DNA of 35,777 nt, from assembly GCA_023133275.1 (NCBI GenBank), contig JAGLWU010000009.1, positions 1 to 35,777 of the forward strand, written 5' to 3'. The notes beneath the pieces are model-generated. The model was not told the DNA's origin, searched no databases, and worked only from the letters and a program-made list of their open reading frames with translations. Made by a program: the position numbers and the translations under genes. The stretch's first letter is position 1. Each line of letters begins with the position of its first letter. Of the stretch, positions 19,052 to 28,810 are shown piece by piece. Origin of the DNA: Candidatus Moraniibacteriota bacterium (GTDB lineage Bacteria; Patescibacteriota; Minisyncoccia; Moranbacterales; GCA-2747515).

Positions 19052-20421
19052 TTATTTAAAAGTTTCTAAAAAATCTATAATAACAATATTTATTGCTAAC
19101 ACTTTATTCTCTTCCCTAAATTCAGATATTTTTTCCAAACTTTTTTTAATTTTTTCTAATTTTTCTTTCTTACCATAAAAATTCAGGAATAGTTTTTTCA
19201 TTAAATTTATTGTATTTATTTTTTCATTTTTAACTCGTCTTTTCTCCTCTTCACTACGAAAACTAACTAGTCCATCTATTGAAACCCACAGATCTGTAGT
19301 TAAAAAACTTTTAGGATCATAAAGATAGAAAGAAAGGTAGCACATAAACCATTTAACACTGATTTTAGGAAATAATACTTTAATAGTATCAAATACATCA
19401 TACGTGTTGTTATTTGTTTTTGAAAATTTTATAAATTTTTCCTGAATCACCTTTTGAAAAAAGTTATTATAATCCTCCTCTGTTATCTTCCAATCTTCTG
19501 GAAAAGTATTTAGAATAGCTGACTTCAAACTACTATCCCTACAATCAAAAATATAACGGAAAATTTTATCAAAAAATAAATTTATAATTTCCTTATCATT
19601 TTCATACTTTTTAATTTCATCATAAATACATCCAAAATTCGATAAGTTATCTTTTGGCTTACTCCTTAAAATATCATCAAAAAAGTAATTTCTAAAAAAC
19701 CACCCCTTACAATAAAAAATTTTATTTCTTTGAATTTACCTTCTCTCTCCATTTTTGTTTCAATCTTAATCCATTTCAACAAATTAGGAAGTACAACTGT
19801 TGCAATTAGATAATAATCTCTATTCTTTATATGCTTTCTATAAACATTTGCCATTATTGTAGCAGAATTATAATCACCCTCACTAATAATTTCATTAACA
19901 AGACCACAAAAAATTTCTGTATACTCTTCTTCCAAACTATCACCTTTACTAACCCAAACAGACTCCCAAGACTTTAAAAGAATTTTTTTATCCATTTTAT
20001 ATTTTTTCAAAAATTTTAAAGCAAAATCTTTATCTGACTCAAAAACCCATTTCCAAATATTTCTAAAGGGACTCCAAATAAGCCAAATTATAAAAGCTAA
20101 AAAGCTAAAAATTAATACAATCTTAAAAACCCAAAAATAATTTTTATAAAAAATAAAATTAAACAAAACAAGGGTAGAAAAAAATAAAATCTTATCTACT
20201 TTTAAGATCTCTTTTAATAGAATGAATAATTCTAAATTTGTATCGACTTTTCCTTCTGCTCTTTTTTCAAAAAAATAACTCAAAACTGCAACTCCAATCG
20301 GAACTAACATAGTCAACATTCCCAAAATAACATTCTGAAAATGAGACGGATCTAATTTATTTAAAAATTCAATAAACCCTAAATTACCCCAATCAACTAA
20401 TAAGTCTAAAAATTCTTTCAT
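19052..20421 (-). pseudogene. Membrane protein gene broken by a one-base frameshift
   Basis: Two minus-strand frames, 19666-20421 (251 residues) and 19052-19528 (158 residues), are parts of one gene. Adding one base in the run of six A at 19714-19719 joins them into an open frame of about 456 residues, including the stretch FFYCKGWFFRNYF at the junction and an open link to the second frame. The N-terminal part has hydrophobic segments at about 30-50, 78-93 and 97-117, then a soluble region. The C-terminal half is charged and helical. I do not recognise the family. The start lies about 15 bases after the dnaK terminator, leaving little room for a separate promoter. The break may be real decay, slippage or a sequencing error. 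Confidence 0.6.
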
Positions 20422-20475: not shown

Positions 20476-22431
20476 CTATTTCTTCTCTTCACCCTCACCA
20501 TCATCTTTCTTCTCCTCCTCTTCTTTCTCAACCTCAGCCTCTTTAACATCACTTTTCTTCTCATCATCACCCCCACAAGTTCCCCCAGCACAATCGCCAC
20601 CCTCTTTAGCCTGAGCCTCCTGAGCCGCTTTATAAAGCTTCTCACCAATCACCTGAGCCGCAGTAGAAAGCTCTTCACTAGATTTCTTAATCGCCTCATT
20701 ATCAGCTTTCTCATCAGCCAATACCGTTTTCAAAGCCTCAATCTTTTCCTCAACCGGCTTTTTCTCATCAACCGTAATCTTATCACCAGCCTCTTTCAAA
20801 GCCTTTTCACTTGTAAAAACTAACGTATCAGCAGTATTTCGAATCTCAACACCCTCTTTCTTTTTCTTGTCCTCCTCAGCGTGAGCCTCAGCATCCTTTT
20901 TCATCTTATCAACTTCCTCATCAGACAAACCAGATGAACCCTCAATCTTAATTGACTGCTCTTTTCCACTAGCCTTATCAATCGCTTTAACATTCAAGAT
21001 ACCATTTGCATCAATATCGAAAGAAACTTCAACCTGTGGCACTCCTCGAGGAGCTGGCGGAATCGAATCAAGAATGAAACGTCCCAAAGTCTTATTATCC
21101 ACAGCCATCTCACGTTCACCTTGCAAAACATGAATCTCAACACTCGGTTGATTATCAGCCGCAGTAGAAAAAGTCTGAGATTGACTAGCAGGAATAGTAG
21201 TATTCTTTTCAATCAATGGAGTTCGCACACCACCCATAGTCTCAATTCCCAAAGTCAAAGGAGTAACATCCAAAAGCAAAACATCTTTCACATCACCTTG
21301 AAAAACACCACCCTGAATCGCAGCACCACTTGCCACAACCTCATCAGGATTAACAGAAACATTAGGTTTTTTACCAAAATATTCCTCAACAGTTTTCTGA
21401 ATAATTGGCATTCGAGTCATACCACCCACCAAAATAATTTCATTAATATCACCCTTTGAAAGTCCTGCTTCTTTAATCGCTGCTTCAGTCGGCTCTAATG
21501 TTTTTTGAACCAAATCATGAACTAATTCTTCCATCTTCGCTCGAGTCAAAGTCATAACCAAATGTTTTGGACCATCTTCTCCTGAAGTAATAAACGGTTG
21601 GTTAATCTCACTCTGAGCAGCTGTTGAAAGCTCAATTTTTGTCTTCTCTGCCGCTTCCTTAACTCTTTGTAATGCTAGATTATCTTTTGAAAGATCAATT
21701 CCCTCAGCCTTTTTAAATTCATCCAAAATCCATTTAATAAGAACCTGATCAAAATCATCACCACCTAAGTGAGTATCACCATGAGTAGCCTTAACTTCAA
21801 TTGTGTCTTCACTAACCTCCAAAACAGAAACATCAAAAGTACCACCACCTAAATCATAAACAACAATTTTTTCTTCATTCTTTTTATCAAATCCGTAAGC
21901 CAATGCAGCTGCAGTCGGTTCGTTAATTACTCGACGAACTTTCAAACCTGCAATCTCTCCCGCCTCTTTTGTTGCCTTTCTCTGTGCATCATCAAAATAT
22001 GCAGGAACTGTAATTACTGCTTCTTCAATTGTTTCGCCTAATTTCTCTTCCGCATCTGCTTTCAATTTACCAAGAATCATTGCACTAATCTCTTGTGGAG
22101 TGAACTCTTTTCCGCCCATCACTACTTTGATTCCACCATTGTCAGCCTTTGCAACTTTAAACGGAAAAAGTTTAATATCTTCTTGAACTTCTGAATCCGT
22201 AAAATCACGACCGATCAAACGCTTTGTTGAAAACAATGTGTTTTCAGGATTAGTTACAGCTTGACGCTTTGCCAACAGACCTACTAAACGTTCATCATTT
22301 TTATTGATTGCAACTACTGAAGGAGTTGTTCGGTTTCCTTCTTTATTTTCTAAGATCTCTGGCTTTCCACCTTCAACTACAGCCATCGCTGAGTTTGTGG
22401 TTCCGAGATCGATTCCTAATATTTTTCCCAT
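20476..22431 (-). CDS. dnaK: Chaperone protein DnaK (Hsp70)
   Basis: ATP-dependent chaperone of 651 residues. The nucleotide-binding domain begins [17 protein letters not shown] (residues 5-21) and contains [28 protein letters not shown], the phosphate loop [14 protein letters not shown] and [10 protein letters not shown]. The substrate-binding domain contains [14 protein letters not shown] and LQGEREMA. The helical lid ends in an acidic tail after a Cys/Gly-rich [13 protein letters not shown] stretch. The C-terminal tail is rich in Glu and Lys rather than ending in the EEVD-like motif of eukaryotes. It is controlled by a CIRCE operator. The partners grpE, dnaJ and hrcA are not in the window. 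The transcript has a leader of about 125 bases. Confidence 0.98.
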
Positions 22432-23060: not shown

Positions 23061-23132
23061 AAACACAATTTCAAAAGCTCTAACTTTTCCAAAAGGTCAT
23101 TCAGCTCATCCGCCAAGCAACCCAAAGAAAAA

Positions 23133-23506
23133 CTAATCCTCCATTTCAACCACTATCTTTTTCGATTGAGATTTTTCAATCTTAGGAATCACAATCCGCA
23201 AAACACCTTTTTTGTAACTCGCTTTAGCTTCATCCTCCTTAACCATCACAGGCAAAGAAACCGATCGAGAAAAACTCCTCTCTCAAACATCCTTTCGATA
23301 ATAGGACTCCTTTTTAACCTCTTCTTTACTTGATGTATTTCCAGAAACAGTCAAAGCATTGTCCTCAATCAAAATATCAACATCCTCCTTATCAATACAA
23401 TATCAGAAATAGGAGTCTTCACCACAACATTCTCACCCTCTTGATAAACATCAATAAGCGACGTAAAATCAAATTCATTATTAAAAATCCTTAATAAACT
23501 ACCCAT
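23133..23506 (-). pseudogene. Decayed second hsp20 gene
   Basis: Read from ATG at 23506 the frame begins MGSLLRIFNNEFDF and soon meets the Hsp20 pattern YQEGENVVVKTPISDI. It then loses a base near 23390-23405. After correction it continues DVDILIEDNALTVSGN, KKESYYRKDV, a TGA at 23283-23285, then RSFSRSVSLPVMV and KGVLRIVIPKI to a TAG at 23133-23135. The TGA stands where the intact paralogue at 15877 has Trp (YWGTFSRS), so TGG to TGA is likely. The corrected length is about 124 residues, without the acidic N-terminal extension of the other copy. One frameshift and one nonsense codon together make this a true pseudogene. A remnant of an insertion sequence abuts its start. Confidence 0.88.
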
Positions 23507-24783: not shown

Positions 24784-27096
24784 TTATTTCCTCCTTCCTG
24801 AATACCCCAATGCCTTTTCCCATCTCCAAAGCATCTCATCACTATAATCTGGTTTTGCCGTTGGGTCAAGAGGATTATCTCTATTTACATAATATAAAAT
24901 ACTGTGTCCGAAAGATTGTGTATATCTTTTCTGCAATTTACTCGCATCCATTTTCCTAGCTTTGTCAACAGAAATCCTTTCACCTGTTTTTTTATTATAA
25001 TACACTGCACCGCCTTGAGAAATACTACCCCCTAATTTACCCGTAACCATAGAATGTACAGAAGTATTTGGCTCATAATCTTCAAATTGAGTATCTGGCA
25101 AAGACTCCAATTCCCTTTCAATAAATTTCCGCCACAAAGGAGCAGCCACTTGACTTCCTAAACTGCCTTTTTTCAAAGGTTTATTTTCATTGTTTCCCAC
25201 CCAAACGCCAACAGCTAAATCAGGAGTATAACCTAATGTTAAAACATCCCTCGCTTCTTGAGTTGTCCCAGTTTTAGCTGCTACCTTTCGCTCTGGAAAA
25301 TAAAGATTATTTTTCTTGCCAAAAACATAAGTTCTTGCATCATTATCACTAAGAATACTATTAATTTTACGAGCAACATCAGCATTAATAACTCTCTCTG
25401 ATTCTGGCGGATGAACGATTTCTTCATCACTAGAATCAACCACACGACTAATTCCATGAACTGGAGCTTTAACCCCATCATTTGCAAAAACTGAAAAAGC
25501 ACCTACTTCTTCCAAAAGTTTAACCTCGCCACTACCTAAAACTAATGACAATCCAAAGCGACTCCTATCTTTCAAAGTAGTAATTCCCAACTCCTCCGCA
25601 AAATCAATTGACTCATCAATTCCAACTAAATATAAAGTTTTAACCGCTGGAGTATTCAATGAACCTGCCAAAGCTTTTCGCATAGAAACTAATCCATGAT
25701 TTTTTCCATCATAATTACTCGGTTTATATTCATTGCCTGAACCATCTTCACCAAAATTTGTTGGCACATCGTAAAGCAAAGTTTCTGGTTGATAACCTTT
25801 ATCAAAAGCGGCTGCATAAACAATTGGCTTGAAAGATGAGCCTGGTTGTCGTTTACTTAATGTTACATTTACTTCTCCATCATTCTCAGCATCAAAATAA
25901 TCAACGCTTCCCACCATTGCTAAAACCCCGCCACTTTTAGGATCAATCGCTACTAAAGCCGCATTACTTGCTCCGTGTTTTGGCAATTCAACTGCATAAT
26001 CTTTAACATCCTGTTCTGCTCTTTTCTGCATTTCATAATCTAAAGTTGTATAAACTTTAAATCCCCCTTGTTGCACTCGTTCTTCTCCAAAAATTTTTGT
26101 TAATTGTTCTTTAACATAAAAAACAAAATGAGGAGCTTGAATTGTTTCTTTATGTGCTTTAAGTTTTCCCAAAGTATTAGTTGCCAACGCTTCATTGACT
26201 ATCTCTTTATCATACATTTCTAAATCAGCCATTCGATTTAAAATATATCTCTGACGCTCAATCAATCTATCAGTATTTTCAGCATAAGGCGAAAAATCAT
26301 ACGTAGCTTTTGGCAAAGACGCTAATAAAGCTGCCTCGTCCAAAGTTAATTCGCTAGCATTTTTACCAAAGAAAACTTCCGACGCTGACTGCACTCCATA
26401 AGCATTTGAACCATAAGGAACCTCATTTAAATAATAATCAAGAATTTGATCTTTTTCAAAATATCTTTCTATTTTTATCGCTAAAACAATTTCTTTAAAT
26501 TTACGTTGGTAAGTTTTTTCTCGAGTAAGAAAAGTATTCCGCACTAATTGTTGCGTGATTGTACTTCCTCCTTGCGAATTTTCTTTTTTGATAAAGTTTT
26601 TATGAGCTGCTCGTAAAATTCCGTAAATATCAATTCCAATGTGTTTATAAAAATCGTCATCTTCCGCCGCAATCGTTGCATTACGCATGTAATCAGAAAT
26701 ATCATTGTGATTAACTACTTTACGATCTTCCTCACCATGTAATTCGTATAAAATATGTTCACCAGTTTTATCATAAATGATTGTAGTTTCATAAATATCC
26801 ATTTTAACCAAAGCTTCTGCGTCAACTGTATTGTAATAAGCATACAAAAAAACTGTCGCTCCTGCTAGAGCCACAACCAAAATTAAATCTATAGAAGTAC
26901 TTGCTATAAACCCTATTATTTTAAAGAAAATTTTCCACTTGCTATTTTGCTTTTCGCCTTTTTTCTTAGTCTTTTTGCTCTTTTCTTTAGTAGTTTGCTT
27001 CGTTTTTTCTAGTTTAATTGTTCCTAATTTGGAGCTTTCTTTTTTTTTGAAAAAACTTTGAGATTTGCTCTTTAATTTGTTGAAATTTAGTTTCAT
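24784..27096 (-). CDS. pbpA: Class A penicillin-binding protein 1A (GT51 transglycosylase plus transpeptidase)
   Basis: Bifunctional peptidoglycan synthase of 770 residues. A basic cytoplasmic tail of about 50 residues precedes one membrane segment (about 53-80). The GT51 domain has the catalytic Glu145 in AAEDDDFYKHIG, then GGSTITQQLVRN and EIVLAIKIER with LNEVPYG. The transpeptidase domain has SxxK at Ser420-Lys423 (PGSSFKP), SxN at Ser479-Asn481 (SLNTP) and KTG at 608-610 (AAKTGTTQE). Both active sites look intact. The very Lys-rich N-terminus is longer than usual. The symbol follows common use, and pbp1A or mrcA would be equally suitable. It is transcribed alone. Confidence 0.93.
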   Translation of the reverse strand: MKLNFNKLKSKSQSFFKKKESSKLGTIKLEKTKQTTKEKSKKTKKKGEKQNSKWKIFFKIIGFIASTSIDLILVVALAGATVFLYAYYNTVDAEALVKMDIYETTIIYDKTGEHILYELHGEEDRKVVNHNDISDYMRNATIAAEDDDFYKHIGIDIYGILRAAHKNFIKKENSQGGSTITQQLVRNTFLTREKTYQRKFKEIVLAIKIERYFEKDQILDYYLNEVPYGSNAYGVQSASEVFFGKNASELTLDEAALLASLPKATYDFSPYAENTDRLIERQRYILNRMADLEMYDKEIVNEALATNTLGKLKAHKETIQAPHFVFYVKEQLTKIFGEERVQQGGFKVYTTLDYEMQKRAEQDVKDYAVELPKHGASNAALVAIDPKSGGVLAMVGSVDYFDAENDGEVNVTLSKRQPGSSFKPIVYAAAFDKGYQPETLLYDVPTNFGEDGSGNEYKPSNYDGKNHGLVSMRKALAGSLNTPAVKTLYLVGIDESIDFAEELGITTLKDRSRFGLSLVLGSGEVKLLEEVGAFSVFANDGVKAPVHGISRVVDSSDEEIVHPPESERVINADVARKINSILSDNDARTYVFGKKNNLYFPERKVAAKTGTTQEARDVLTLGYTPDLAVGVWVGNNENKPLKKGSLGSQVAAPLWRKFIERELESLPDTQFEDYEPNTSVHSMVTGKLGGSISQGGAVYYNKKTGERISVDKARKMDASKLQKRYTQSFGHSILYYVNRDNPLDPTAKPDYSDEMLWRWEKALGYSGRRK

Positions 27097-27215: not shown

Positions 27216-27598
27216 CTACCTCTCCATAACTGATTTTAAGTTAATTAAAGTATCTTTAATAAATGGATTGTCTAATTCTCCATTTTTCATCCATTCAAAA
27301 TATTCCATCTCAGTTTTATTTTCATCAATTTCTTTGTAAGTATATTTAACTGAATAATTTTCTTCTAAATCGGTTAGTATGAATATATTATTTTTTTGAA
27401 ACTCTACAACTTTATAAAAATCCCATTCAGAACCCCCCCTGTATTTTTATATTGAGTGCCTATTTTTGGAGGATATTCATCTACAATTTCTTCCTCGATA
27501 GAAGAAATCCATAAATGAGTATTTTTTGGATTTGTCGTAAATTCAAAAACTTCTTCAATTGGCTTATCAATAATAATTGTAATTTTATTCTTTTTCAT
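27216..27598 (-). pseudogene. SRPBCC (START-like) protein gene frameshifted in a C7/G7 tract
   Basis: Frame 1 from ATG at 27598 reads MKKNKITIIIDKPIEEVFEF and PPKIGTQYKNTGG, then meets a run of seven C (27433-27439, G7 in the gene). Past it the frame ends within 20 codons. Adding one G, or removing two, restores an open frame: SEWDFYKVVEFQ, VKYTYKEIDENKTEMEYFEW and NPFIKDTLINLKSVMER to TAG at 27216-27218. The corrected product of about 127 residues has the beta-helix-beta layout of SRPBCC lipid/hydrophobic-ligand binding proteins (VFEFTTNPKNTHLW early, long C-terminal helix). Homopolymer slippage could switch it on and off. It may also be a pseudogene or a read error. Confidence 0.75.
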
Positions 27599-27628: not shown

Positions 27629-28810
27629 TTATTTATTACTTTTATAAATCCCCTCCAACTGTTCTCCAATTTTCTTCCAACTAAATTTCTCCGCTCTCCG
27701 AAAAGCATTTTCAGCATAATTCTTAACCAATTCCCTATCATTATACAACTTTTTCACAGATTGACAAATATTCTCCGCATTCACTTCCGACAAATATACG
27801 CCGCCATCATCACCTAAATAATTCCTATTAATCGCACGATCACAACAAATAATCGCCGTCTTTGCCACCATATAATGCAATATTTTTCCACTAGCCTGTT
27901 GAACAGAATTATCCTTAGGATCCACCGCCACATCTGCCAGAGAATTTACTTCTGCCAGAGAAAAATAATTCAAAGGAGAAATCACCGTTACGCTTTTTTC
28001 CAAATTATTTTTCGCAATATAATTTCTAACCCATCCAGCTGGAAAACCTCCAATCACAAAATAAACATCAGGTAAATTTTTTACTGTTTTTTTAATCGAA
28101 TTTATTAAATGTTTCACACCTTTATTTTCAATCAAGGCACCTGTGTAAACAACTACAAATTTATCAACTGGAATATTAAATTTTTTTCGTAAATTTTTTT
28201 TATCATCCAAATCTTTATAATAATCAACATTTACACCATCAGATACATGAAAAGCTTTTTCATCACCTCGAGCATTTTTAATAATTTTTACATTATTTTT
28301 ATCACTCACCACGGCGACATCACCGATACTATTTATTTTCCTTTCAAGAAAATTAAAAATTGATTTCAACCAACTAATTTTTAAATAACCATGAGATTTC
28401 ATTTCATTTACCAAACTGCCATGAAAATCAGAAACAAGCAAAAACTTACGCCAAAAGAAAATTATTCGCATCATTTTGCCAATCAAAGCTCCTTCATGTA
28501 AATGACCATGAACCACATCTGGTTTCCAAGTACGAATCATGTAAAAAGTTTTCCGAATCAAAAAAATATTTAATAAAACTTTTTGCCAATCAGGACCCGC
28601 CTCAGTTTTTTTATACCAAAAAAGCCAACGTCGAATTCTCCTCACGTCAATCTTTGTTTCTATATATTTGTGAATATCATCACCATTATGATAGGTAACA
28701 ATAACTATTTCATGACCCAGTTTTTCCAAAGCTCGAGCTTCTTCATAAATACGAATATGCGTACCACGATGAGAAAAAAACGGAGTCGGTGCAATCATTA
28801 AAATTTTCAT
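27629..28810 (-). CDS. GT4-family (GT-B fold) glycosyltransferase
   Basis: Likely transfers a sugar from a nucleotide donor in surface polysaccharide or glycolipid synthesis. The 393-residue protein starts MKILMIAPTPFFSHRGTHIR, the glycine-containing acceptor-side opening of GT4 enzymes, with DVVHGHLHEGALIG in the N-terminal Rossmann domain. The second domain has VVVYTGALIENKGV, DVYFVIGGFP and DVAVDPKDNSVQQASGKILHYM, which corresponds to the donor-binding region. The last segment lacks the textbook E-x7-E spacing, so the retaining mechanism is inferred from overall similarity only. No signal peptide. There are no other sugar genes next to it. Confidence 0.85.
   Translation of the reverse strand: MKILMIAPTPFFSHRGTHIRIYEEARALEKLGHEIVIVTYHNGDDIHKYIETKIDVRRIRRWLFWYKKTEAGPDWQKVLLNIFLIRKTFYMIRTWKPDVVHGHLHEGALIGKMMRIIFFWRKFLLVSDFHGSLVNEMKSHGYLKISWLKSIFNFLERKINSIGDVAVVSDKNNVKIIKNARGDEKAFHVSDGVNVDYYKDLDDKKNLRKKFNIPVDKFVVVYTGALIENKGVKHLINSIKKTVKNLPDVYFVIGGFPAGWVRNYIAKNNLEKSVTVISPLNYFSLAEVNSLADVAVDPKDNSVQQASGKILHYMVAKTAIICCDRAINRNYLGDDGGVYLSEVNAENICQSVKKLYNDRELVKNYAENAFRRAEKFSWKKIGEQLEGIYKSNK

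Follow-up and report, generated by a model that had tools for sequence, protein, structure and literature searches.

A small gene on the minus strand of the window (the whole stretch of DNA analysed here, 35,777 nt) loses its reading frame at a run of seven G, which reads as C7 on the plus strand, lies exactly at 27433-27439 and is the sole run of seven or more G or C in the window. The frame-0 ORF runs from an ATG at 27598 to a stop at 27404 and encodes 64 aa, and the remaining half of the gene occupies another frame, which stays open over 76 codons (71 beyond the G7) up to a TAG at 27216-27218. The features of the locus, with the basis for each in brackets, are:

27629..28810, minus strand: predicted glycosyltransferase-like gene, immediately upstream, with a 30-bp gap (sequence reading)
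27440..27598, minus strand: 5' half of the SRPBCC gene, frame 0, 53 codons starting at the ATG (ORF and homologs)
27433..27439, minus strand: G7 tract (C7 on the plus strand), where the reading frame is lost (sequence)
27404..27598, minus strand: ORF as assembled, truncated, 64 aa, with an out-of-frame tail past the tract (ORF list)
27216..27431, minus strand: 3' half of the SRPBCC gene, other frame, 71 codons and a TAG, conserved in homologs (ORF and homologs)
24784..27096, minus strand: predicted class A penicillin-binding-protein-like gene, downstream (sequence reading)

The glycosyltransferase-like gene and the SRPBCC gene are possibly co-transcribed. Eight full-length homologs (L007-L014), 65-73% identical to the window copy, are intact and align to both of its halves without a gap, which puts the window copy out of frame by a single base; they are also ungapped over the tract, and the break thus falls at the position of the G7. 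An earlier note, made from the letters of the DNA, had placed seven G at the exact point of frame loss and had seen about 70 codons with a proper stop in the other frame, and both statements hold. In the assembly both the tract and the frame break are genuine, and the gene has, as phase-variable loci do, an internal mononucleotide tract at the point where the frame is set. No further stop or indel was found in either half besides the tract break. Pairwise dN/dS between the window copy and the homologs is 0.06-0.33 for the 5' half and 0.09-0.35 for the 3' half, in both cases the range seen between intact homolog pairs, and values this low argue against old decay and for a break that is recent or reversible, or else an error. 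The SRPBCC gene therefore seems to have been disrupted recently and is otherwise intact. Decay, which the same note had offered as a simpler option, does not fit two halves under purifying selection that lack a second lesion; nor do the eight homologs carry the further lesions that it had named as speaking against a switch.

When both halves are joined, the gene encodes a 127-aa protein that matches PF10604 (Polyketide_cyc2) with E=1.2e-4 and 22.8 bits, under the gathering cut-off of 27.4, and the same profile is matched by 9 of the 10 members of the alignment at E<=0.01. The AlphaFold model of one intact homolog (L007; pLDDT 75.5) has a helix-grip fold, as expected of the SRPBCC/START-like superfamily, and its best PDB structure matches are Bet v 1-like proteins, PYL receptors and TcmN ARO/CYC, with E values of about 1e-6 to 1e-7; a sequence search of the PDB with the family profile gave no significant match. 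These structure matches support a predicted SRPBCC/START-like fold for the gene product, in agreement with the original gene call. The window copy thus resembles the small SRPBCC/Polyketide_cyc2 proteins in the predicted fold of its intact homolog and in the Pfam match of its family, but differs from them in being truncated as assembled and in matching below the gathering score. In the model the tract maps to a loop between two strands (residues ~55-60), a variable place in the family, and a protein cut short at this point lacks most of the sheet as well as the long C-terminal helix; for this reason the predicted product of 64 aa would very probably be non-functional.

The homologs come from Parcubacteria, Komeilibacteria, Moranbacteria, SR1, Gracilibacteria and some DPANN-labelled bins. 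The gene was sought in 56 relatives from the same family or order and found in none of them, which marks it as an accessory gene of patchy distribution that has probably spread horizontally; the genus consists of one genome only. The scatter of the close homologs over CPR and DPANN-labelled bins, together with their absence from the 56 relatives, suggests either horizontal spread or mis-binning. An intact paralog, 48% identical, lies on another contig of the same genome (C49) and could relax the need for the window copy.

The genome (1.03 Mb in 74 contigs, 93% complete, with a GC content of ~30% in the window) holds 16 runs of 7-10 G (seven G7, six G8, two G9 and one G10) and 22 runs of exactly six. 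Independent codons predict ~5 runs of at least seven G per 1.03 Mb, and a synonymous shuffle ~22; the 16 runs observed genome-wide are thus no clear excess and give no sign of selection for tracts. An enrichment suggested by the heavy tail of run lengths disappeared against the synonymous-shuffle expectation, and the earlier view that a G tract is striking in so AT-rich a genome was overstated. A profile search of this 93%-complete genome found neither MutS_V (PF00488) nor MutL (PF01119), each of which was detected in 11 of 14 control genomes. The repair background is therefore permissive, as in genomes with phase-variable loci, and the failure to find MutS and MutL, together with the other coding tracts of at least seven G that lie at frame breaks, makes slippage plausible.

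Reading the frames around the tracts placed 7 of ~14 coding tracts of at least seven G at a frame break (on C6, C9, C12, C14, C21, C47 and C74, the last being the contig of the SRPBCC gene), some of these judgements (C9, C12, C47) coming from ORF reading only. The firmest of the other cases is a PF04463 (2-thiouracil desulfurase/DUF523) gene on C6, broken exactly at a G8 (L048 2000-2007), whose halves match profile positions 1-43 and 47-141. Further breaks at G7-G10 lie at L052 2001-2008 (C14), L054 2001-2010 (C21), L049 2001-2007 (C9) and L059 2001-2008 (C47), and at L050 2001-2008 (C12) the break falls at a G run directly after an ATG, and another frame holds a long ORF. The tracts in trmD, lepA and several other genes are in frame. 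A codon-model frame finder, applied to ~132 kb of the genome in samples centred on G runs, called between 4/13 (strict settings) and 6/14 coding tracts of at least seven G broken, 0/21 runs of six G, 1-2/196 A/T runs of seven and, at strict settings, 0/55 A/T runs of 8-10; at strict settings the difference between runs of at least seven G and of at least seven A/T (1/251 broken) is significant (Fisher p ~2e-5). In three relatives of the same family, whose GC content is higher (37-43% in the sampled stretches) and which offered little sequence for training the frame finder, 0-1 of ~16-19 coding tracts of at least seven G were broken, so that the pattern is possibly peculiar to the window genome or to its sequencing. 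This genome-wide association of G tracts of at least seven with frame breaks, in a CPR genome without MutS and MutL, is the most interesting by-product of the analysis. Two more frame breaks in the window lie away from homopolymers: an Hsp20-like gene at ~23100-23500 on the minus strand is spread over two frames with a break near 23397, and the ORFs of 251 aa and 158 aa at 19052-20421, also minus, look like one gene broken near 19679. A viral-contig pattern scan gave no match.

On balance, and with a confidence somewhat better than even, we favour a small SRPBCC/START-fold gene that has recently suffered a one-base slippage frameshift in a G7 born by chance in a repair-poor CPR genome. The run would have arisen from neighbouring Gly codons in the variable loop; replication slippage within it would then have produced the frameshift, now fixed or dominant in the sampled population, and slips of this kind would persist in a genome that lacks MutS and MutL. 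In the assembled majority sequence the gene would be off, its product comprising 53 native residues and 11 further ones, under half of the fold. The frame could be regained by another slip, and nothing points to selection keeping the tract as a switch. Slippage as the cause, the recency of the event and the off state of the gene are all what we infer; slippage is the simplest account, and it makes the frameshift reversible in principle.

The main rival, to which we give a low but appreciable probability, is an error of consensus or base calling in the G run, the real gene being intact and the tract length wrong in the MAG. Such an error would sit well with a gene that is otherwise pristine and under purifying selection in both halves, with the two window breaks that involve no homopolymer, and with the clustering of frame breaks at G runs here but hardly in relatives, which could also reflect an effect of sequencing or consensus in these particular data. 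However, short-read indel error is usually low at seven bases, none of the A/T runs of 8-10 is broken at strict settings, the trmD and lepA tracts are in frame, and a second assembly has the same G7. Contig JAGLUC010000165.1 (L046), assigned to a Methylococcales MAG, matches the window at every position over 22.2-35.7 kb (13.5 kb), the tract and the frame break included. On the left this contig runs into a foreign dnaK and on the right it breaks off within a short tandem repeat, and these different contig ends indicate a separate assembly run. The contig may derive from the same sample as the window, and its agreement makes a random slip of assembly less likely, bearing on the assembly and not on polymorphism in the population. 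With a foreign dnaK on the left (L046 1-3000) and CPR sequence on the right, it is a chimera or a mis-binned sequence; an apparent strain divergence at 20861-22200 was rejected, a different dnaK being joined to the contig there. The split sequence of the Hsp20-like gene is identical in this assembly, and a search of the bin that holds it for the other G-tract contexts of the window genome found none.

Less likely, and in our view improbable, is that the gene is an evolved contingency locus in which reversible slippage of the G tract toggles the SRPBCC protein, much as in Campylobacter. The poly-G contingency loci of C. jejuni, the closest working model by analogy, are mainly G9-G10, switch reversibly at 1e-4 to 1.6e-3 per division, lie in surface-structure genes and belong to a species without functional mismatch repair (PMC8355987). 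The two systems are alike in a small AT-rich genome, an intragenic poly-G, the absence of mismatch repair and the loss of frame at the run; the undamaged 3' half and the several genes with frame breaks at G7-G10 also speak for a switch. The two nevertheless differ: (i) the tract is a G7, shorter than the C. jejuni norm; (ii) no polymorphism in its length was seen in the one other assembly found, which is possibly from the same sample; (iii) the tract is not conserved, none of the eight intact homologs having a G run longer than 5 at the site; (iv) tracts of at least seven G are not enriched over the codon-shuffle expectation, and those of relatives are in frame; (v) the SRPBCC protein looks cytosolic and is not the product of a surface-structure gene. 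An evolved switch predicts, besides mixtures of tract lengths, that orthologs retain the tract and that long tracts are in excess, and neither of these last two was observed, so that a phase switch is not favoured. The suggestion of such a switch in the earlier note thus survives in part: slippage is plausible, in view of the missing MutS and MutL and the other tracts at breaks, but no polymorphism was seen in the one other assembly, and conservation and enrichment do not accompany it. A second comparison is offered by inlA of L. monocytogenes, where slips in a 5' poly(A) have been measured in frequency and have arisen repeatedly (PMC2831843). There too a homopolymer slip truncates an otherwise intact gene and could revert; the window gene differs in having a poly(G), in its mid-gene position and in the single allele seen.

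Recoding at the G run, whether by -1 frameshifting of the ribosome or by slippage of RNA polymerase, would yield some full-length protein from the G7, and the conserved 3' frame and the GGG GGG codons at the shift point speak for it; it is very improbable, since the intact homologs carry no tract and need no recoding, the site is not conserved, and the run does not form a standard X XXY YYZ heptamer in which both codons re-pair. An old pseudogene in decay, with which the other frame breaks of the window would agree, is excluded at this resolution by the clean halves and by dN/dS values as low as those of intact homologs.

A wider version of the switch, doubtful even beside the single-locus one, would have uncultured candidate-phyla bacteria without MutS and MutL hold a few contingency genes with poly-G tracts, turned on and off by slippage, and would give Patescibacteria a switching repertoire like that of Campylobacter; as similarly doubtful candidate members we would name the SRPBCC gene, the PF04463 desulfurase-like gene, a peptidase-like gene with a HELSH motif, and others. 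No case of G-tract switching in Patescibacteria was found in the literature searched. If tract lengths proved to be mixed in the reads, they would be evidence for such switching in this group, and many apparent pseudogenes in genomes of this kind would merely be off in the consensus. If they were not mixed, the finding would be a caution that in repair-poor MAGs genes break at G runs and annotation goes astray.
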